DNA from: a virus
Virus record (IMG/VR): IMGVR_UViG_3300024261_000014
Span: 1 to 64,000 of that record
Direction: 5' to 3' (one strand)
DNA length: 64,000 bases
The notes under the pieces are model-generated. The model made no database searches, was not told the origin of the DNA, and saw only the letters and a program-made list of their open reading frames with translations. Within the stretch, counting starts at the first letter, position 1. Each line of letters starts with the position of its first letter. Below, piece by piece: positions 7,262 to 57,838 of the stretch. A program made the position numbers and the translations under genes.

Positions 7262-7630
7262 CTACTCACTATCATCATCATCATCATATATTCCATCATA
7301 TATCGGGTTCTTCTTTATATTCGTTGTATTGGTATCACCATTCCAATCTTTATCTATCTCATCCACTTGGTCGTAGACCGAAAAGTACTCCGCTCGTTCA
7401 ACACACTCTTCCAACTCAAACGGGTCATCTACATCATCAATAACTTTGGTATCTCTTGAATCAATCGCCGATTTTAATAAAACTCTTGACCAATCCTCTA
7501 TATACGATATACCAAGATTACCGATTGTGATGATTAACTTAAATATCTCTTTTAATAATGACCCTATTGTAGATTTGGAATGTGCATTGGTCGTAGACCG
7601 ATTTGGTTTTATATTATCTAATTTTGACAT
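7262..7630 (-). CDS. Hypothetical acidic protein
   Basis: The 122-residue protein starts MSKLDNIKPNRS. The ATG at 7630 is preceded by AGGAGGGATTG, far better than an in-frame ATG 33 bases upstream. A central hydrophobic stretch (IGSLLKEIFKLIITIGNLGI) may be a membrane or amphipathic helix. The C-terminus is very acidic (IYDDDDDSE). The gene contains two copies of the 15-base repeat TTGGTCGTAGACCGA in different frames. Its start overlaps the stop of the preceding small frame as TGATG. Confidence 0.6.
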   Translation of the reverse strand: MSKLDNIKPNRSTTNAHSKSTIGSLLKEIFKLIITIGNLGISYIEDWSRVLLKSAIDSRDTKVIDDVDDPFELEECVERAEYFSVYDQVDEIDKDWNGDTNTTNIKKNPIYDGIYDDDDDSE

Positions 7631-7888
7631 CAATCCCTCCTCGATTCGTAAGAATCCAACCAATGATTCAAAGGCAACTTCATCATATAATAATGTTTAT
7701 TTCCTATCTCTACATAATCGGGTATATCTTGATGTAATTCTTGATTTATAATTGTGATTCTCAACCTATCCTTAATCTCATCCCCTATATAATCCGGCCA
7801 TATTCACTCCAACAACCATATAATGGATTATCGGAGGGCACGATTCGATACGGGATAATCTCGGGAGTTATATTTGGTCGTAGACCGA
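7367..7888. repeat. Three exact copies of TTGGTCGTAGACCGA
   Basis: Copies are at 7367-7381, 7587-7601 and 7874-7888. The core GGTC-GTA-GACC is an inverted repeat. The copies lie inside two genes and are read in three different frames (as SVYDQ, RSTTN and GLRPN), so the conservation is at DNA level. A protein-binding or recombination site is plausible. Confidence 0.85.
7630..7764 (-). CDS. 44-residue hypothetical with non-ATG start
   Basis: An open frame ends in TGATG overlap with the next gene and reads LRITIINQELHQDIPDYVEI, then HYYMMKLPLNHWLDS. No ATG opens it. TTG at 7764 is the conservative start; an ATT at 7776, directly below a GGGGATGAG ribosome-like site, would add four codons. Composition and the coupling argue for coding. 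No family is recognised. Confidence 0.45.
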   Translation of the reverse strand: MRITIINQELHQDIPDYVEIGNKHYYMMKLPLNHWLDSYESRRD

Positions 7889-8024
7889 TATGATTGTCAA
7901 GTTTATATTCATTTGGTATTAATGGTAACGCCGAATTAGGATTATATCCCGTTTGGCCTTTTAATACACTAACCATTAATGTAATTAAAACTAATATTAT
8001 ATGTAATTTACTAATTCTTGTCAT
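7785..8024 (-). CDS. Small secreted protein
   Basis: A 79-residue protein with a clear signal peptide: basic start MTRISK, hydrophobic residues 8-20, then VLKGQTGYN. The mature part is Pro/Asn-rich with a single Cys (YGCWSEYG). AAAGGATATAA precedes the ATG. It carries the third copy of the 15-base repeat, at 7874-7888. Export to the host envelope is likely; function unknown. Confidence 0.6.
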   Translation of the reverse strand: MTRISKLHIILVLITLMVSVLKGQTGYNPNSALPLIPNEYKLDNHIGLRPNITPEIIPYRIVPSDNPLYGCWSEYGRII

Positions 8025-8052
8025 TTATATCCTTTCGAGATTGTGAGAATGA

Positions 8053-8083
8053 TTTGGGGGGATTCGTTAGAATCTTCCCCAAA
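8053..8083 (-). other. Hairpin below the GHKL-like/nuclease gene
   Basis: TTTGGGGGGATTC, four bases, GAATCTTCCCCAAA forms a 13-base stem with one bulge. No T-run follows on the minus strand, so it is a weak terminator or an RNA-processing site between genes 8179-9792 and 7785-8024. Confidence 0.45.
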
Positions 8084-8152
8084 CACTCTCGAGTCTCGTA
8101 CTTTGTGGTCTCTTTCCGTTCCTATATATATACATATATAGAATCTAAAAAA

Positions 8153-8206
8153 AAGTCGTTACTTTGTTTAGCAAGTCGTTACTTTGATTGTAACGCCCTT
8201 ACTTTG
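8153..8206. repeat. Tandem AAGTCGTTACTTTG repeat
   Basis: Exact copies at 8153-8166 and 8173-8186, and a partial copy (CCTTACTTTG) at 8197-8206, spaced about 20 bases. They span the 3' end of the gene at 8179. The 20-base period would place them on one helix face only approximately. Confidence 0.6.
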
Positions 8207-9792
8207 TCAAGGTAGTATCTATAGGTTGGTGGTGCATCAAATCCCAAGTCTGATATGTCAATCAACTCCTTGTAGATTTTTACACCTTTCAGTCTTTCAC
8301 TTGTCATAATAAATAATCTGTCTTGAGCGTATGAATCAAGTGCGCTCTGAGTTATATTATGTGATATACCTATTATATACTCAACTCTTCTATCCTTGAG
8401 AGCATATGCGTACAACTGATTCCTGTCGTTTCTTCCGAAGTCTTTCTTCTTCATCTCACACAACCACTTAGGAGTCTTTTTTCCTAACACCCCACCGGAT
8501 TTCCATATCATATACACCACGATATCATATCTACCATTATCCTTAGAGATTTCCTTTTTGGTTATGGCCCTTTTCTCATCTTCAGTCATATCATTCATCG
8601 GTCCCAAACCATGCTTGGTTCTCCACTCGTTACTCGTCCCAGTACCCATTTGATTCTTCACAATGATATCATATTGGAACAGCTGTCCACCCTTTTCAAC
8701 TTGAGATACATCTGGATATAGTTGCAATAGTAATGGTTGAATGGTTTCAAGTACATCAGTTTGGAATGATGCAGATAGACCCTCGTACTTATCTGTTTTC
8801 ACCATATAGGTAGCAACCTCTTTAGAATCTACCCACACATCGATGAACTTGTTGTTTAGAGATAACATCCCATTACCCGTTCTCAAAGGTAGTAGATTTG
8901 CCATCTGTCCATCTGAACCATTATACTTCAATCGAATCATAGGTTTATCACCTATCCATTTACTCAACTTATTCTCACCATCAATTTTACCAACACCATC
9001 AATGTTCAACACGATAGATGATTTCTCACCTGGTCCATCATCAGCACCAGGAGATTCAACAACTACTTGATTACTCATTCCACCACTACCATCAGGTAAT
9101 GAATTGAACTCTGATGAAGTTCTGAGTGTACCATTTTCATTTATCCAAGTGGGTGACCAAGGTTCTATTGGTTTACTCAACTCAGAATTATCAGCAGCCT
9201 GATTCATACCACTTACCAATATAGTATGAGTTCTTCCAACCAATATTGGTTCAGCATCATACTCAGCAATTTGAGTTCTGAGTTTATCAATCCAATTCTT
9301 GTATCCACCCATCCTTGAAGTACCTTTCACGAATCCCTTTACTTGGAATTTGTGATTTGGCATCGGTTCTCCGATTGTGATAAAATCCTCTTCTGCCTGA
9401 TGGTCATAATTATATGGATTACCATCTACATCTTCCCAAGACATATCCAAATCTCCACAATACTTACCGACAGTACCTAATCCACTACCGAATATAGAAG
9501 AACCATCTTTGTCCTTGAGATTTAACTTACCATCTTTGACAGTATCTTCGTTGATAGTATCCTCTTCCAACTCAGATATCGTTGGACCACATACATCTTG
9601 TTCGTATGTTACCCACGCACCACTTTTTACTACATCAATCTTCCATACTATGTTCATTGCCTCAGGTGGTATATTGGTTATCAACTCGAACCAAACCACC
9701 TCTGGCTTTGAACCTATTAAAGTATTCAATTCTTCAGTTTTTGCAAGTCTTTTAGTTTTACCTACAATACTGGTCTTTACTACTTTACTCAT
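8179..9792 (-). CDS. Possible GHKL-like ATPase fused to a PD-(D/E)XK nuclease
   Basis: The 537-residue protein has two readable parts. Residues about 30-130 resemble a GHKL ATP-binding fold: ELITNIPPEA in N-box position and GSSIFGSGLGTVGKYCGDLD as a glycine-rich lid. The usual acidic DxGxG box is degenerate. Residues about 415-490 look like a PD-(D/E)XK nuclease: RYDIVVYMIW, then CEMKKKDF (ExK) and NQLYAYAL (motif IV). GAGGAAAG precedes the ATG. The ATPase call is tentative; the nuclease call is firmer. MORC-like or anti-defence roles are possible but unsupported. Confidence 0.5.
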   Translation of the reverse strand: MSKVVKTSIVGKTKRLAKTEELNTLIGSKPEVVWFELITNIPPEAMNIVWKIDVVKSGAWVTYEQDVCGPTISELEEDTINEDTVKDGKLNLKDKDGSSIFGSGLGTVGKYCGDLDMSWEDVDGNPYNYDHQAEEDFITIGEPMPNHKFQVKGFVKGTSRMGGYKNWIDKLRTQIAEYDAEPILVGRTHTILVSGMNQAADNSELSKPIEPWSPTWINENGTLRTSSEFNSLPDGSGGMSNQVVVESPGADDGPGEKSSIVLNIDGVGKIDGENKLSKWIGDKPMIRLKYNGSDGQMANLLPLRTGNGMLSLNNKFIDVWVDSKEVATYMVKTDKYEGLSASFQTDVLETIQPLLLQLYPDVSQVEKGGQLFQYDIIVKNQMGTGTSNEWRTKHGLGPMNDMTEDEKRAITKKEISKDNGRYDIVVYMIWKSGGVLGKKTPKWLCEMKKKDFGRNDRNQLYAYALKDRRVEYIIGISHNITQSALDSYAQDRLFIMTSERLKGVKIYKELIDISDLGFDAPPTYRYYLDKVRALQSK

Positions 9793-11147: not shown

Positions 11148-11177
11148 AATATAACACTAAAAGCCTATACGAGTCAA
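11148..11177 (-). promoter_or_regulatory. Sigma70-like promoter, family member 3
   Basis: TTGACT (11172-11177), 18 bases starting CGTAT, TATATT (11148-11153), with AAGTAC directly ahead of the -35 box. The -35 box lies in the last codons of the upstream gene. Confidence 0.78.
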
Positions 11178-41691: not shown

Positions 41692-41742
41692 CCTTTTGGT
41701 GGTAAGTTATGCACCACCACCACCTTTTGGTGGTAAGTTATG
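41692..41742. repeat. Tandem duplication with 31-base period at a gene end
   Basis: The 20-base unit CCTTTTGGTGGTAAGTTATG occurs at 41692-41711 and 41723-41742. One copy encodes the last residues HNLPPKG of the Hint protein; the other lies just past its stop. This looks like slippage that duplicated the end of the gene. Confidence 0.8.
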
Positions 41743-43254
41743 AACTAATATATCACTTGAAAAATAAGTATCAATATCCTCTACATCTAATGAATAGAAA
41801 GTTTCATCGGTAGTTACTTCGACTGTTGATGTTACTTCAATAAGGTTACCATCCTTATCCATTAGTTCATCACCAACTTCAATTTCAAATGCTCTAAGGA
41901 ATTTATACTCATTTGCTCGTTTTACAAATATCATCCCCATCCAACCAAACTTATAAGTATCATTTATTATATAATGTTCTGGTTGTACATTAGAAGATAC
42001 CTCAAGTACAACTGAACCACTCGAAACACTATTGGTTAAATCTGTTGATGAATATGCTGCAAAATCGTGGTCACTTAAACTCATTCCAACTGGTTGATAT
42101 GATTTAACCACATCACCAACTTCTACATCTTGTATTTGTTTAGTACTACCATCATACATACGAATTAAACTTCCACTCGGTGTTGTAGTACCTCTATTTG
42201 CAACCAGTTTCCACTTATACCAATCATTATCTATAGATGAACTTACACCTGTAGGTGGATTTATTTGTATGTATTGTGGACTATAATAAGAACACAATAC
42301 TTCTGTATGTTGTGGTGTGAATAATATATATGCTCTACCAGTCCCTAAGTATTTATTTCCATTACCATCTAAACTACCAGAAGATGGAATAAATTTTTCT
42401 GGATAAGTAGATATACCAGTACTCGTCTCGATATCATACCAATATGTCATACTGGTGTGAACGCGCTCTTTATAATCCGAATTTGATTCCCAAGTTTGTT
42501 CAACTCCATCCGCATCTGTATAGGTAGATGAGTATATATTTCTTTGTTCTGCATTAGTTATATATGAGTTAAAACTTATATTGAATGGACTAACTAATAA
42601 TGAACCATCTTCAGTTTTAGATTTTAAAACAAAATCTGGCCAAGTTCCTACTCCACGATTAGCTGCAATTGATGATGAAGTAAAACCATCTATAAATGTC
42701 TCACCAACATTTGCACTCTGAAGTATAGTTCTAAATTTAGTTTTATCCATAGAACCAGTAGCCATTGTATATAATGTATCATCTGCTCCGTAACCATTTG
42801 GTGTATCAACGAAAAGATGAAATTTACTTGAAGATGCCTCTACCCGAGAATTAACATATGGTGCTGAACTATCATAAACAAAAGAAGAACTTATGTTATG
42901 ATTAGCGAAACTTGCGGATATACTTGAAAGTTTAGTTTGTCTTGGATTTTGCATATCTGCCCAAGTAGAACCATAAATATTTACACTACTATAACTTTGT
43001 GTAACAGCATATTGTGCAATTCTATCAAAGAAATCCGAACCTTGTACTGATAAAGGTATCTGTACACTTGGATTTGTATTAAACTCAAATATTTTTGTAT
43101 CATTACTACCACTCTCAATAGTAAAATCATATGCACCAATAAATGCTGAATAACTATGATTTGGCCAATCTCCTGCACTACCTGTTATGTAATCACTAAT
43201 TTCTTTTACTTTAGCGTTTACATCTGATTTTTGTGTATAATTTACTATACTCAT
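41707..43254 (-). CDS. Large phage protein with C-terminal Hint (intein-like) domain, paralogue 1
   Basis: 515 residues. Residues about 360-505 form a Hint fold: GSLIRMYDGSTKQIQDVEVG at the start, FEIEVGDELMDKDGNLIEV in the middle and ETFYSLDVEDIDTYFSSDIL then VHN at the end. This suits a bacterial intein-like domain. The expected N-terminal Cys is not present (the site reads TPSG), so self-processing is doubtful. Residues 1-350 are Ser-rich, with KIFEFNTNPS recalling ATP-grasp enzymes only faintly. AGGAGA precedes the ATG. A structural role is possible. Confidence 0.72.
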   Translation of the reverse strand: MSIVNYTQKSDVNAKVKEISDYITGSAGDWPNHSYSAFIGAYDFTIESGSNDTKIFEFNTNPSVQIPLSVQGSDFFDRIAQYAVTQSYSSVNIYGSTWADMQNPRQTKLSSISASFANHNISSSFVYDSSAPYVNSRVEASSSKFHLFVDTPNGYGADDTLYTMATGSMDKTKFRTILQSANVGETFIDGFTSSSIAANRGVGTWPDFVLKSKTEDGSLLVSPFNISFNSYITNAEQRNIYSSTYTDADGVEQTWESNSDYKERVHTSMTYWYDIETSTGISTYPEKFIPSSGSLDGNGNKYLGTGRAYILFTPQHTEVLCSYYSPQYIQINPPTGVSSSIDNDWYKWKLVANRGTTTPSGSLIRMYDGSTKQIQDVEVGDVVKSYQPVGMSLSDHDFAAYSSTDLTNSVSSGSVVLEVSSNVQPEHYIINDTYKFGWMGMIFVKRANEYKFLRAFEIEVGDELMDKDGNLIEVTSTVEVTTDETFYSLDVEDIDTYFSSDILVHNLPPKGGGGA

Positions 43255-43712: not shown

Positions 43713-43854
43713 CTTCAACACCTTTACCATCAGTTACACAACCATCTCTAACAACTTCGGTATCTTTTATTGTCTGTACTATCTCATCACATTTTTCGTG
43801 TGATAGGAATGTTGGTATTTGAATTGAGAATTTAAATGCTTTATTTTCCCCCAT
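43702..43854 (-). pseudogene. N-terminal remnant of a fifth tandem oxygenase
   Basis: A 50-codon frame reading KAFKFSIQIPTFLSHEKCDE then IVQTIKDTEVV matches the opening of paralogues A-D (aromatic start, FLS.E.CDE, helix). It stops before any catalytic residue. It overlaps the end of the Hint gene upstream by 14 bases and the GNAT start downstream by 11. It is probably the leftover of a 2OG oxygenase replaced by the GNAT gene, though it may still be translated. Confidence 0.6.
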
Positions 43855-45388
43855 GTCCTGGCGCATTATGAACTAATATATCTGATGAAAAGTATGTATC
43901 AATATCTTCTACATTGAGTGAATAAAAAGTTTCAGTAAGATACTTCTCTTCCACTGCAGTGACATCAATCCAATTACCATCTTTATCAAATAATTTATCA
44001 TCCACTTCTACCTCATAACCTTTTCTAAACTGAAAGTATCCCAAACCACCCCTATCCATATAGACTCCTGCTAATTGTGGAATCTTATAAGTATCATTTA
44101 TCAAATAGTATAAATTTACTTCTTCTGAATGTACATCCACAACAACTGAACCACTTGCAAAACTATCACTTACATCTGTAGAACTCCAACTTAAATAATT
44201 CATATCACTATCTGGCATTCCCAATGAACCAGAACCACCTGGTTGATACGATTTAACTACATCACCAACCTCTACATTTTGTACCAATTTAGTACTATTA
44301 TCATACATACGAATTGTTGCACCATGTGGTGTAGATGGGCCTTGGTAGGGTTTTAATGTCCACTCGTACCAATCATTATTCAGAGATGAACTTACACCTG
44401 TTGGGGCGTTTAATAATGAAAACTTACTATTATAGTAAGTACCAAGTGTAATTACTTTTTCGGGTGTTAATAATTGTACACTTCTACCATTACCTATGAA
44501 TTTTCTTGCACCATCATCACTACCTGATGAAATAATATAATCCTCTACATAATTACCCGTTCCATCTTCCACATCTATACCATAAAAGTGTTGCATACTC
44601 TCTGTGAATGGTGTACCCACACTCCAATTTACTTCATTTCCATCAGCATCTGTAAAAACACTTCCGGTTAGCTCTCTTACTTCTGCACTACTGATGTATG
44701 AATTAAATGAAATCGAACCATCAGCTGTAACCATAAATGATGCATGTTTAGCTAAATCTTTTAAAACATAATCTGGATAATCACTAACCCCTTTATTTGC
44801 TGCTATTGAAGCTGAATTAAATGCCCCAATTAAAGAATCACCACCAATTGGTGATGCCCCAAGTATAGTTCTAAAACTTGTTTTAGTAAATGAACCACTT
44901 GATATCTGATACAAAGTATCATCCGTGTTACTTGGTGAAGCTACGAATACATGGAAACTCCCCGAATTTGAAGCAGTTCCTCTTTTTGCTAAGTATTGTG
45001 CTTGGTCTGTATAATTAAATGATGAACTAATATTATATTGAGCAAAACTTGCAGATATTGTAGGTTGTGTTGCAGTAGGTGGATTATATGTTCCAAATTG
45101 AAAACTACCATATACTTGTACATCTGAATAACTTTGTGTTGAGGCATATTGTGCAATATCATCATATATGTTTCCATATAGACTACTCATCTGAGTACTA
45201 TTGATTGCAGTATTCATCTCAAATACCTTTACATCATCACTACCACTTTCAATTGTAAAATCATAACACGCAAGTATTCCTGCGTAAGATGAATCAGGCC
45301 AACCACCAGCACTACCTGTAATGTAATTAGATAGTGATTCTAACTTCGTTTCTACATCTGATTTCTGACTAAATATTGTTATTGACAT
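43841..45388 (-). CDS. Large phage protein with C-terminal Hint domain, paralogue 2
   Basis: 515 residues, the same length as the copy at 41707-43254 and similar throughout. The Hint part starts GATIRMYDNSTKLVQNVEVG and ends ETFYSLNVEDIDTYFSSDIL, then VHNAPGHGGK. As in paralogue 1, the splice-site Cys is missing (TPHG). GGAGAAC precedes the ATG. Both copies share ITGSAG.W and YDFTIESGS near the N-terminus. The pair probably arose by duplication around the GNAT/oxygenase segment. Confidence 0.72.
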   Translation of the reverse strand: MSITIFSQKSDVETKLESLSNYITGSAGGWPDSSYAGILACYDFTIESGSDDVKVFEMNTAINSTQMSSLYGNIYDDIAQYASTQSYSDVQVYGSFQFGTYNPPTATQPTISASFAQYNISSSFNYTDQAQYLAKRGTASNSGSFHVFVASPSNTDDTLYQISSGSFTKTSFRTILGASPIGGDSLIGAFNSASIAANKGVSDYPDYVLKDLAKHASFMVTADGSISFNSYISSAEVRELTGSVFTDADGNEVNWSVGTPFTESMQHFYGIDVEDGTGNYVEDYIISSGSDDGARKFIGNGRSVQLLTPEKVITLGTYYNSKFSLLNAPTGVSSSLNNDWYEWTLKPYQGPSTPHGATIRMYDNSTKLVQNVEVGDVVKSYQPGGSGSLGMPDSDMNYLSWSSTDVSDSFASGSVVVDVHSEEVNLYYLINDTYKIPQLAGVYMDRGGLGYFQFRKGYEVEVDDKLFDKDGNWIDVTAVEEKYLTETFYSLNVEDIDTYFSSDILVHNAPGHGGK

Positions 45389-52993: not shown

Positions 52994-55732
52994 TTAAAAA
53001 TCAATAGTTAATCCTATGTTTGCATATCTTGGTGTTCCAAGAAATACTTCAGAATTATGAGCTAAGTGAAGTTTATCACCATACCCATTGTATTGACTAT
53101 TATCAACTGCATCTTGTACATAAACTTCATCAAGTGCGTTAAAGATGTGACCTGTAATAGTCAAATCTAAACCAGCAATACTTGGAAGTTTGTAAGATGC
53201 GTGTAAATCAAGTTTTGAGTAACCAGGAGCTTCCCAAACTTGTGTTCTATCTGCAACTCCATCAGAATCCACTTCTCTTGAACCAGGACTCCAATCTGCA
53301 TAGTTCTTATCATATACATTGTAAAGTGCTTGTACTCTCAATCCCTTAATAGGTTTAAGTGTTACACCCAATATATAAGATGATTGTGGTTGGTCACCAA
53401 CAAATAACCCATCAAGTGCATATGCATATTCAGTAGTTTGATAACCAATTACTTGGTTGTCATCGTTATATTGAGATTCTTGGTAAGTACCATTGGCATC
53501 ACCATCGAACTTCCAACCACCGAAAGAAGCAATCAAATCAAGTTCTACCATTTCGTGTGGTAATACTTTTACTTCAACTTCTGTACCTCTATGTTTCTGA
53601 TTAACACCTCTTAAAAAGATTACATCAGTATCACCTGAATCTCCTTGACCCGTGTCAACATTACGAGTAAGGTTTCTATCTTTCCAATCTGTGTTATAAG
53701 CAGATACTTTCACGGCAACTTTATCGTTTGCATATCCAACACCAACTTCTGTTGATAAGAATTTCTCATTGTCTGGGTCGGATGCGACCGTACCAGAATA
53801 ATCAATTACATTATCAAGAATTGGTGCTTTTTCCACATATCCTGAATTTATAAAAGTAGTAACACCATCTAACCATTCATAGTGTACTCCACCTTTAACT
53901 TGATATGATGAAATAGCATCAGCAGTAATTTTCTCGTTTTCTACTGAAAAATGGTCTTGATATGAATATTTAATAGATGATATTCCACCCATTCCATATA
54001 CATTTAGATTATCTTTCGTGTAGTTACCTTGAACAAATCCACCTAACCAATCGACAGTAGTAGTGTTATGATAAGCAATAATATCACCTAACCCAACAAC
54101 TTTTCCATCTGGTGCATTGTCATCAGCAAAATCAACATAGTAATCACCACCTAATAAATCACGAACTTCACGAGCGTGTTCTATTTCAGCAGTTCTCCAA
54201 TCGATACCAGTTTGAAATTCTAAATCTTCATTAACTTTATAATTTAATTTAGAAATTAATCCATATGTATCTTGTCTGTTGATTGAGTTTCTAAGAATAC
54301 CTGTAGAACGATGGTCTGTTTCAGAATAATCAGCATCGATATTAGTACGATTCTGTTCAATCTCTCCATTCCAATCCCACATCCAAGGCGAACTTGAATA
54401 CCAAGCATTATCTGCTACGGCTGGTGTTCTCATTACACTACCATAAGTTCCTGTTCCACCACCTGAACCACCACTCCAATAAAGAACTGATGATAATTTA
54501 GTTTTATCATTTATCTCTAAAAAGTGATTTAGATTCACTAATGGTTTATGGAAGAAATTCTCCCTTTCATTAAGAAAGTTTGAATTTTTTCTTTTGGTTG
54601 TGTTTGCTCCATACATATACCAATATTGTTCTCCAGTATAGTCGGAACTAACTGGTGCCCAATTTTGACTAAAGAATCTACCAGCTTCAGTTTCGAATTT
54701 GTTACCCTCTGCAAAAGCATCAGTATCATATCCGTCAATATCACTTGCTAACTCTTGTGAGTAAGTAGCAATATTCTGTTTGTATAGATTTTGTCCGTGT
54801 CTTTGTGGTGCACCGATTGCGTACAACTCGAATCGTTGTTTATCGGATACTGCATAAGAACTTCCAAAATAATAAGCCCAAGCATCTGTCCAGTTTCCAT
54901 CAATGATACCATCACCAGTCTTACGAACAATTGTTCCAGCCAGTGCAAGTTTATCACCAATCAAACCTGAATTGTAGTTAATAGTAGTTTTAATAAAACC
55001 ACCATCTCCTGCTTCTTGTTTGAACTTACCACCCTTTTCGTATTTAGCAGGGTCTGTAATGATATTCATAGTTCCACCAATAGAAGGTGTGGCAAGATTT
55101 ACAGCTGATAGTCCTCTTTGTAACTGAATTGATTGAGCAGCATCTGCAACCCCATCCCAATTACTCCAATAAACCCATCCGTTCTCCATATCATTTTGGG
55201 GAACACCATTAATCATCACCGCAACATTTCTTTGGTTAAACCCTCGTACATTAATACGAGCATCACCAGCACCACCACCTTGTTGAGTTGCATATACACT
55301 TGGTGTAGTATTCAAAGCCATTGGAACATCTTGACTACCAAGTCTAAGTTCCATTTCTTCTTTACTAACCATTGAATAAGCAACAGGTGTTGTTGCAACA
55401 GCTCTTGAAGCCAAAACTTCAACATCTGTTAGAGTAAGAGCATCAATTGCCAAAGCAATATTCACTTTTACTTCACTATCACCCACAACAACCTCTTTAG
55501 ATTGAGATGAGTATCCTATGAATGAAGCAGTAATAGTATAAGTTCCAGCTTCTACTGAAATTGTAGTAAGACCTGTCTCGTTAGTAACACCACCGAGTTC
55601 AGTTCCCTCTACCACTACATTTGCTCCAACCAAAGGGTTATATTCAACATCTTTAACATCAACAACAATGGATTGAGCGAACAATCCTGTCATCAATACG
55701 AAAGATGCTATTAGTTTACGATATATATTCAT
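52994..55732 (-). CDS. TonB-dependent outer-membrane receptor
   Basis: 912 residues. A signal peptide (residues 1-20, ending GLFAQ), a carboxypeptidase-regulatory-like domain (about 22-105, YNPLVGANVVVEGTELGG), a plug domain (about 115-225, with INVRGFNQRNVAVMINGVPQ) and a long beta-barrel ending YANIGLTIDF with a terminal Phe. These receptors import siderophores, B12 or glycans using host TonB. The plan is typical of FCB-group bacteria. GAGGAG precedes the ATG. It lies between gp43 and the RNR gene, so this is a phage-carried host-like gene. Contig chimerism is unlikely but should be excluded. Confidence 0.93.
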   Translation of the reverse strand: MNIYRKLIASFVLMTGLFAQSIVVDVKDVEYNPLVGANVVVEGTELGGVTNETGLTTISVEAGTYTITASFIGYSSQSKEVVVGDSEVKVNIALAIDALTLTDVEVLASRAVATTPVAYSMVSKEEMELRLGSQDVPMALNTTPSVYATQQGGGAGDARINVRGFNQRNVAVMINGVPQNDMENGWVYWSNWDGVADAAQSIQLQRGLSAVNLATPSIGGTMNIITDPAKYEKGGKFKQEAGDGGFIKTTINYNSGLIGDKLALAGTIVRKTGDGIIDGNWTDAWAYYFGSSYAVSDKQRFELYAIGAPQRHGQNLYKQNIATYSQELASDIDGYDTDAFAEGNKFETEAGRFFSQNWAPVSSDYTGEQYWYMYGANTTKRKNSNFLNERENFFHKPLVNLNHFLEINDKTKLSSVLYWSGGSGGGTGTYGSVMRTPAVADNAWYSSSPWMWDWNGEIEQNRTNIDADYSETDHRSTGILRNSINRQDTYGLISKLNYKVNEDLEFQTGIDWRTAEIEHAREVRDLLGGDYYVDFADDNAPDGKVVGLGDIIAYHNTTTVDWLGGFVQGNYTKDNLNVYGMGGISSIKYSYQDHFSVENEKITADAISSYQVKGGVHYEWLDGVTTFINSGYVEKAPILDNVIDYSGTVASDPDNEKFLSTEVGVGYANDKVAVKVSAYNTDWKDRNLTRNVDTGQGDSGDTDVIFLRGVNQKHRGTEVEVKVLPHEMVELDLIASFGGWKFDGDANGTYQESQYNDDNQVIGYQTTEYAYALDGLFVGDQPQSSYILGVTLKPIKGLRVQALYNVYDKNYADWSPGSREVDSDGVADRTQVWEAPGYSKLDLHASYKLPSIAGLDLTITGHIFNALDEVYVQDAVDNSQYNGYGDKLHLAHNSEVFLGTPRYANIGLTIDF

Positions 55733-55816: not shown

Positions 55817-57838
55817 TTAGTTTGCGTAATCTTGGTCATCATTATCACCAGTCGTAGGTGTGATTTCTATATCACAAAAATCACCATCACAAAACTTCTC
55901 TACATTAGCTTCTTCTGCTTTGATTACACCAAAGTTTAGTTTACCTAATTTCTTAACATCTTTATTATATTGGTTTTCATCAATTGCTTCATATGGCATT
56001 TGTTTGTATGCTCCATAATCATGTCTTGGTAGTAATGAAATACCCTTCAAATGATATTGGTAATAGTTTAATACTTGTGGTATCATTTCTCCCTCTGTTT
56101 CAGGATTAAATGTGACCGTACAACTTACTTGATTATCAGCCCAATGTCTTTGCATAAATGCTGCTAATGAGAATTGTTCCCATATGGATAACTCTCCGAC
56201 TGTTCTAATTCCCTCTCCTACATCGACAGGAACTTCAACAACCATAGTGGTATCCTCTGAACCAAACGCAGGTTCTACTTTATATCCTGCCTTTTTCAAA
56301 GGTTCTAACAAATCTGAATGTTTCGATACTCTAATTCTTCTTGTATAGAATCTTGATTCTGGATAATGTAATCCAGGTGTTGAACCTGCTAATAGTGATA
56401 CTGTCCCACTTGGTTTAACACTTGTAGTCTTAATTGATTTTGGTACTGCAAACCAATCTGAATACATTTTATCCCACTCTTGTATGGTATCATATCCATC
56501 TTCCAACCAAGTCTTTAACTCGTGTAATCCACGATTAGTTATGAACTGAGCAATTCCACTCACACTACATCCAATTCTTCTGTTTCTCAACATAACTCTA
56601 TTTGTATCACTCCAATGAGTTCTACCAAGTGTTACAGTTTTTGCATACAAATATGCATATTTTAAAGTTCTTTTATAATCCTCTAATGAGTCGTGATTGT
56701 TTGGGAATGTTTCCACTAAACAACATAATTCATAACTTTCTAATGATTGTTCTAAACAAGGATTACCACCCGCAACTCTATGGTCTTTATCATCTCCACC
56801 ATTCTTCATACGAGAGTATTTTCTCATGTTGTCTAACCACGCAAATCCAGGCTCACCATTATCATTAATTCTTTTTGATGCCTCTGTATAATCCATACCG
56901 AGTTCTGCAAATATTGAATTATTAGACGTCCAACCATATTGTTCTCTGTGTGGATTTACTTTATAATTCTTTAAATCTAAGTATTCTTCTGAATTAGGGT
57001 CTCCAAATACAATCTCAGCAGTTCTTCTAACATTTCCTGCCACTACACACTTACCGATTAAATTCATAATATCTACGATTGTTGTGATTGTTATTGGTTT
57101 TCCACTATTAGCTTCTAATGTTTCTCTAACAGTCTCGTGTACTTCCATTAGTGGTTCAGGACCTGAACTTACTCCACCAAAACCTTTGATTGGTTCACCT
57201 GCTAATCTGACTAAACTATAATCAAATACAACTTCTCCCTGTCCGTGAAAATAACTTTCTAATAAAAGTTGTAATGATTCTACCCAACCCTCACGAGTAT
57301 CTGGTATTTGAAAGTTTTGTTCATCTCGTTTGATATCAATACCTTTAATATCTATCTCTCCAGCACCTTTAGTATCAAATCCTACTCCAACACCTAACAT
57401 TGAAGCATCCATAAGGAAACAAAATGGTTTTGCGTAATCTTCTTTGATTGTTTTAGTGGATACGAATGCACAATTGTTTAGTGCTGCATACAAACCCTTT
57501 TCTTCTGTGATTGCTGTTCCCATCGCCCATAAACCACGACCTGGTGGTAAGAACTTCATTGTAAAGATTCTTTCGTACATATCTTGTGCTGATTTTTGTG
57601 CTTGCCATGGATTCCAACCTAATTGGTGAGATTCAATCCAATTCATTTGCATTGTATAAGTTCCCTCTACAACTCTTTTGACGGTTTCCCACCATCTCTC
57701 GTTTTTCCCATCTTCTTTAATACGTGAATACGTTCTCATATAAACTAATTCACCCAACCCATTGAAACCAAAAGGCGGTTTCTTTCTTTTATACTTATTA
57801 ATAAAATTTTCTGATAATTTAAACTTATGCGTACCCAT
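55817..57838 (-). CDS. nrdJ: Class II (B12-dependent) ribonucleoside-triphosphate reductase, monomeric
   Basis: About 673 residues from the ATG at 57838, chosen for GGAGAG upstream. The NNCAFVSTK and GNPCLEQSLESYELC segments hold the active-site and redox cysteines, and the C-terminal CDGDFCDIE is the reducing pair. The radical loop region VGFDTKGAGEI and SVKPSGTVSLLAGSTPG fit Lactobacillus-type NrdJ. It makes dNTPs without oxygen but needs adenosylcobalamin from the host. Confidence 0.93.
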   Translation of the reverse strand: MGTHKFKLSENFINKYKRKKPPFGFNGLGELVYMRTYSRIKEDGKNERWWETVKRVVEGTYTMQMNWIESHQLGWNPWQAQKSAQDMYERIFTMKFLPPGRGLWAMGTAITEEKGLYAALNNCAFVSTKTIKEDYAKPFCFLMDASMLGVGVGFDTKGAGEIDIKGIDIKRDEQNFQIPDTREGWVESLQLLLESYFHGQGEVVFDYSLVRLAGEPIKGFGGVSSGPEPLMEVHETVRETLEANSGKPITITTIVDIMNLIGKCVVAGNVRRTAEIVFGDPNSEEYLDLKNYKVNPHREQYGWTSNNSIFAELGMDYTEASKRINDNGEPGFAWLDNMRKYSRMKNGGDDKDHRVAGGNPCLEQSLESYELCCLVETFPNNHDSLEDYKRTLKYAYLYAKTVTLGRTHWSDTNRVMLRNRRIGCSVSGIAQFITNRGLHELKTWLEDGYDTIQEWDKMYSDWFAVPKSIKTTSVKPSGTVSLLAGSTPGLHYPESRFYTRRIRVSKHSDLLEPLKKAGYKVEPAFGSEDTTMVVEVPVDVGEGIRTVGELSIWEQFSLAAFMQRHWADNQVSCTVTFNPETEGEMIPQVLNYYQYHLKGISLLPRHDYGAYKQMPYEAIDENQYNKDVKKLGKLNFGVIKAEEANVEKFCDGDFCDIEITPTTGDNDDQDYAN

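Follow-up and report, generated by a model that had tools for sequence, protein, structure and literature searches.

Gene content of the locus

Judged by its gene set, which includes a family B DNA polymerase, UvsX, gp32, a DnaB-like helicase and a tail sheath protein, the virus behind IMG/VR record IMGVR_UViG_3300024261_000014 is a T4-like myovirus, its closest named phage by polymerase being Microcystis phage Mel-JY01 (43%). The record has 83,879 bases against 120 kb in one relative and may thus be incomplete. The window, that is, the whole stretch of DNA analysed, comprises 64,000 nt and corresponds to positions 1-64,000 of the record.

The locus of interest contains two small genes, designated A and B (Table 1). 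Homologues of both are present in three related sequences (G010, G009 and L178) and, in part, in G005 and G021, the gene B homologue of G005 being partial. The predicted product of gene A is a small protein of the secreted type. Its reading frame is broken in the window by a deletion of 10 nt relative to the intact homologues of G005 and G021, to be explained by either a genuine mutation or an error of assembly; the C-terminal half is still closely similar to its homologues despite the frameshift. Gene A is preceded by a conserved leader whose hairpin has a fold z-score of -4.7 and, in an alignment of seven sequences, double compensatory changes at 7 of the 10 consensus pairs. Homologous leaders were located at L108:499-626, L109:438-572, L124:11823-11972, L144:4303-4455, L180:3765-3913 and L178:3790-3940, and no Rfam family matched the leader in the window.

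Upstream of A-B in the sense of transcription lies a slot (8179-9792) that varies between viruses, being occupied by unrelated genes in most relatives (G005, G007, G010 and G009). In the window it holds a 537-aa protein found in this virus only, with no family or PDB match and a predicted fold of too low confidence to be interpreted (pLDDT 31). In G005 the slot encodes a 542-aa protein giving a weak HATPase-like match, in G007 a protein of 575 aa, and in G010 one that combines GmrSD_N and HNH domains.

Table 1. Position of the genes, leader and repeated sites of the A-B locus in the window.
Feature	Position	Strand	Description
Gene B	7262..7630	-	122 aa, one hydrophobic stretch (single membrane span), acidic tail
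Site 1, TTGGTCGTAGACCGA	7367..7381	+	Exact match, within gene B; - strand reading SVYDQ (ORF translation)
Site 2, TTGGTCGTAGACCGA	7587..7601	+	Gene B, 29 nt from ATG 7630; reading RSTTN
Gene A, C-terminal remainder	7630..7764	-	Out of frame
Gene A, N-terminal part	7785..8024	-	Signal-peptide-like start, variable linker, conserved core EIIPYRIVPSDNPLYGCWSE
Site 3, TTGGTCGTAGACCGA	7874..7888	+	Gene A linker, between signal peptide and conserved core; reading GLRPN
Conserved gene A leader	8030..8145	-	TATATATGTATATATA box followed by a strong hairpin
537-aa protein	8179..9792	-	Lineage-specific, upstream of A-B in transcription sense

A short inverted repeat in three reading frames

A reading of the letters alone (hereafter the sequence-only reading) had called attention to a 15-mer present twice in one gene and once in the next. 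Exact matching confirmed the three copies, all of them in the same orientation on the + strand, inside genes of the - strand. No further match with up to three mismatches was found in the window and no further exact copy in the whole 83,879-base record, leaving the total at three; sites of the form GGTCNNNGACC are likewise limited, genome-wide, to these positions. The search of the complete record thus ruled out a genome-wide motif, and the random spread of further copies that the sequence-only reading had named as refuting its proposal is not seen.

The peptides read from sites 1 and 2 belong to the ORF at 7262-7663 (-) and that of site 3 to the ORF at 7785-8024 (-), the three being translated in different frames, as had been stated. 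A repeat at the protein level is therefore ruled out. Three sites placed at random would nevertheless fall in three different frames in 2/9 of cases, so that the frames exclude a protein repeat and yet provide no evidence of selection. The earlier argument that protein selection cannot explain the repeat stands in so far as it places the repeat at the level of DNA.

The repeated block, TTGGTC-GTA-GACCGA, has four perfect inner arm pairs, a broken fifth pair and a paired sixth, and conforms to the consensus TYGGTC-NNN-GACCRA, with a half-site TYGGTC and a spacer of 3. The sequence shared between pairs of copies (15, 15 and 16 nt) is centred exactly on the dyad, which upholds the inverted-repeat core proposed before, and outside it the copies have unrelated flanks. 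Centred dyads with at least 5/6 pairs and the inner four intact account for about 0.28% of the genome's 15-mers, and 7% of the genome's 15-mers are as GC-rich as the site, in a genome of 33% GC. The copies are identical even at their asymmetric letters, namely the GTA spacer and the T at position 2 against the G at position 14.

On the + strand the block can be drawn as a hairpin with a 4-bp GGTC/GACC stem and a GTA loop closed by a C:G pair, and the sites could accordingly be conceived as hairpin elements acting as nucleic acid, either as a DNA signal or in RNA. We regard this as unlikely. Sense-strand RNA folds around the sites have z-scores between -1.1 and +0.5 when compared with shuffles, and at site 1 the hairpin stem is absent from the best fold; the mRNA hairpin was rejected because local folding is no better than that of shuffled sequence, and recognition as DNA is favoured for the same reason. 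As regards DNA hairpins, the promoters of phage N4 require a loop-closing C:G pair together with the 5' G and 3' A of the loop (PMC4496689). The C(GTA)G core lies here on the template strand and shares with the N4 hairpins the C-GNA-G rule, the 3-nt loop and the placement on the template strand relative to genes (PMC4496689). It departs from them in its perfect 4-bp stem, in having no common sequence downstream, where a start of the N4 type would fall, and in the lack of a recognizable giant or T7-type RNA polymerase: PF00940 gave no match in the record and six relatives, in a search where no control genome matched either. The longest protein found in the record has 912 aa, whereas the N4 virion RNA polymerase has about 3,500 aa. 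With neither a common start region nor a candidate polymerase found, a promoter is disfavoured.

Comparison with related viruses

The nearest relative holding the region, and the only close comparator, is G005, whose DNA polymerase is 94% identical to that of the window virus and which is 77% identical over the region. Its contig ends before site 1, so the comparison concerns sites 2 and 3. DNA alignment showed that gene B of G005 is devoid of a 42-nt in-frame segment that carries site 2 in the window, and that at site 3 G005 has a different and slightly shorter sequence, the linker of the window virus being a few codons longer. A stretch ACCGATA at site 3 is common to G005, and part of this copy may therefore have descended from ancestral sequence. 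Searches through gene A, gene B, the neighbouring protein and the leader DNA returned no contig closer than G005; G001 and G004 nearly coincide in sequence with the window virus at 37.9-79 kb and beyond, but leave the region of the sites uncovered. The other homologues have a gene B with a shorter N-terminus and a gene A whose linker is reduced in length or missing, from which it follows that all copies occupy lineage-specific or fast-changing linkers.

When the comparison was extended to 40 related IMG/VR records, no exact copy of the 15-mer was found. Outside G005, a single near-match was recorded at two mismatches or fewer (TTGGTCATAGACCAA, in G036 at 56994); it was discarded, being located elsewhere in that genome and carrying two mismatches, when about one chance match is expected across the searched records by our estimate. 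The site had been described as conserved, for which "repeated" is the better word, given that G005 is without sites 2 and 3 and that the 40 records are without an exact copy. A lack of conservation in close relatives had been named beforehand as refuting, and such a lack is what was found, as far as G005 and these records permit the comparison. Two of the roles suggested earlier find no support. A packaging or origin site should be retained in relatives that have the same replication or packaging machinery, and this one is absent from two places in G005 and, apart from the near-match in G036, from the other records at up to two mismatches; nor was a phage recombinase of the tyrosine integrase family found, PF00589 being absent from the record and from six relatives.

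Palindromic sequences inside protein genes recall the Rickettsia palindromic elements, which measure roughly 100-150 bp and have a shared body. Three insertions of a miniature element of this kind would account for a palindrome that is confined to one lineage and that genes accept in more than one frame, and for the position of site 2 within an in-frame 42-nt indel. The likeness stops at the size of the shared unit, here just 15-16 nt and not part of any longer common body; the record has no further copy of it, and neither a target duplication nor a transposase tied to the 15-mer was found, all of which makes such an origin highly improbable.

Chance, assembly and local copying

The repeat is real and improbable. 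Under an order-5 Markov model about 2e-5 copies of TTGGTCGTAGACCGA are expected per genome, and none of 40 simulated genomes contained an exact 15-mer triple within 1 kb, against the one observed, a result that rules out a chance origin of the cluster. Misassembly of the metagenome could be invoked because a single record carries the cluster, gene A has lost its continuous reading frame there and no sibling contig spans the region. Against this, the flanks are unrelated, the ORFs have real homologues and the adjoining leader aligns closely with that of G005. Artefact and chance taken together are the least probable of the explanations considered.

The genome as a whole contains 11 local exact repeats of at least 15 nt where 0.75 are expected, an excess which indicates that local copying takes place in it anyway. 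The cluster could then have arisen when a short word able to form a hairpin was copied, through template switching or illegitimate recombination, into permissive linkers of A and B, two fast-evolving genes, with no function and with too little time elapsed for the copies to decay. Such an origin explains at least as well as binding sites do why the asymmetric positions are identical, why all copies point the same way and why they are not conserved; it also agrees with the lineage-specific distribution, with the location of site 2 in a segment absent from G005 and of site 3 in a linker longer than that of G005, and with a possible relaxation of constraint on gene A, whose frame is already shifted. 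Two points stand against it. The flanks are unrelated while the shared block of every pair ends at the edges of the dyad, and arbitrary copying would be expected to yield differing block ends; in addition, promoters, paralogues and repetitive genes account for many of the genome's other local repeats. We consider local copying a possible origin and the main alternative to binding sites, though somewhat less probable than these.

Sequences outside the record offer little that resembles the cluster. Clustered 14-mer triples of other sequence in 16 related genomes correspond to a promoter-type motif of the AAAAAAGTACTTGACT family or, by their place and sequence, to repetitive genes, and no comparable short repeated dyad was detected there, the remaining candidates being promoters, repetitive or paralogous genes and weak near-matches. 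IMG/VR holds 22 scattered loci, many of these GC-rich, at each of which the exact 15-mer occurs once, and bacterial genomes gave scattered single matches to the 14-mer, with no cluster seen. A host-derived or widespread motif was ruled out on account of this single and scattered distribution.

Possible binding of a dimeric protein

The explanation that we favour, with a probability of about 0.42 and hence tentatively, is that the three dyads are a lineage-specific cluster of sites for a dimeric protein of the phage or the host, acting on transcription of A-B. An exact dyad with neither RNA structure nor a protein-level explanation speaks for a dimer that recognizes the sites as double-stranded DNA. 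The block shared by all copies is identical, centred on the dyad and GC-rich for a genome of 33% GC, and the sites fall where relatives vary or carry indels. On the other side, no copy was found in G005, the nearest relative holding the region, or in the 40 related records, no candidate regulator was found in the record, and the identical asymmetric letters and common orientation go beyond what a symmetric dimer requires. The excess of local repeats counts against binding sites as well. The proposal of a DNA-binding protein thus retains the DNA-level inverted repeat and the lack of stray copies in its favour, and has lost the conservation. As to a repressor, no HTH_3 match was obtained in the record, which is possibly incomplete, and a Pfam scan of a set of its ORFs, most of them lineage-specific, revealed no regulator. 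Binding sites are in sum a plausible interpretation, which the comparison with relatives fails to support.

From these features we infer the following mode of action. A dimeric, sequence-specific protein would bind the three dyads as double-stranded DNA; it would be encoded in an unsequenced or unrecognized part of the virus, or be supplied by the host. Located inside transcribed genes, at 0.25-0.76 kb downstream of what is probably the A-B promoter and leader, the sites would be more likely to act on elongation or silencing than on initiation. Once bound, they would affect transcription of A-B by roadblock, silencing or looping. The linkers that contain them are segments in which the proteins tolerate any sequence.

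Two known systems invite comparison. In the case of stoperators, binding of the repressor blocks elongation. The stoperators of cluster A mycobacteriophages such as L5 and Bxb1 are short, identical or near-identical sites with one orientation relative to transcription, mostly located away from promoters, and their specificity differs between relatives (PMC6550527). The three sites share with them a single orientation relative to transcription. They are otherwise unlike, since L5-type phages have 20-30 sites genome-wide and an immunity repressor gene, whereas here three sites fall within 0.5 kb, in coding linkers of a T4-like virus where no HTH_3 repressor or integrase was found. The operators of controller proteins of restriction-modification systems (C-boxes) are short dyads with 4-bp arms and a 3-bp spacer, arranged as adjacent pairs upstream of the C gene. 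The resemblance, a lead only, extends to the arms, the spacer and the vicinity of a variable, possibly nuclease-type gene; the sites described here differ in being downstream and far apart, with no C protein found.

A broader version of the binding-site interpretation would be a rapidly switching operator system, in which each T4-like virus of this marine group carries its own in-gene dyad set, hidden in protein linkers beside the variable nuclease-type slot, and a co-inherited or host regulator acts through it to control A-B; we consider it decidedly unlikely. Should the sites be bound, the virus would keep regulatory DNA in coding linkers and exchange it within a short evolutionary time, with implications for the way in which the specificity of phage immunity or silencing changes. 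Should they not be bound, they would represent a clean case of a repeated palindrome created by local copying in tolerant linkers, and a caution for the calling of sites from a single genome.

Other features of the genomes

Some additional observations concern other parts of the genomes. The promoter-like repeat AAAAAAGTACTTGACT(TGTAT) is common to relatives; it occurs in the window at 11172, 15150, 38230 and 52938 (-) and in G007 at 55054, 55621 and 56464. Another mini-hairpin of the C-GNA-G type, CCAC-GAA-GTGG, lies downstream of the A-B locus in two relatives (G007:50470 and G010:3072). Two tandem genes for 515-aa proteins (41707-43254 and 43841-45388), probably paralogues, cross-align at 64% in DNA, each with the near-identical copy of the other in G004, and one of them matches a virion structural protein family. 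Adjoining the DNA polymerase gene, the 912-aa protein (52994-55732) combines TonB-dependent receptor plug and carboxypeptidase-regulatory domains, and the DNA of this part aligns in most relatives, which is unusual for a phage genome; its plug domain hints at an association of the virus with Bacteroidota.
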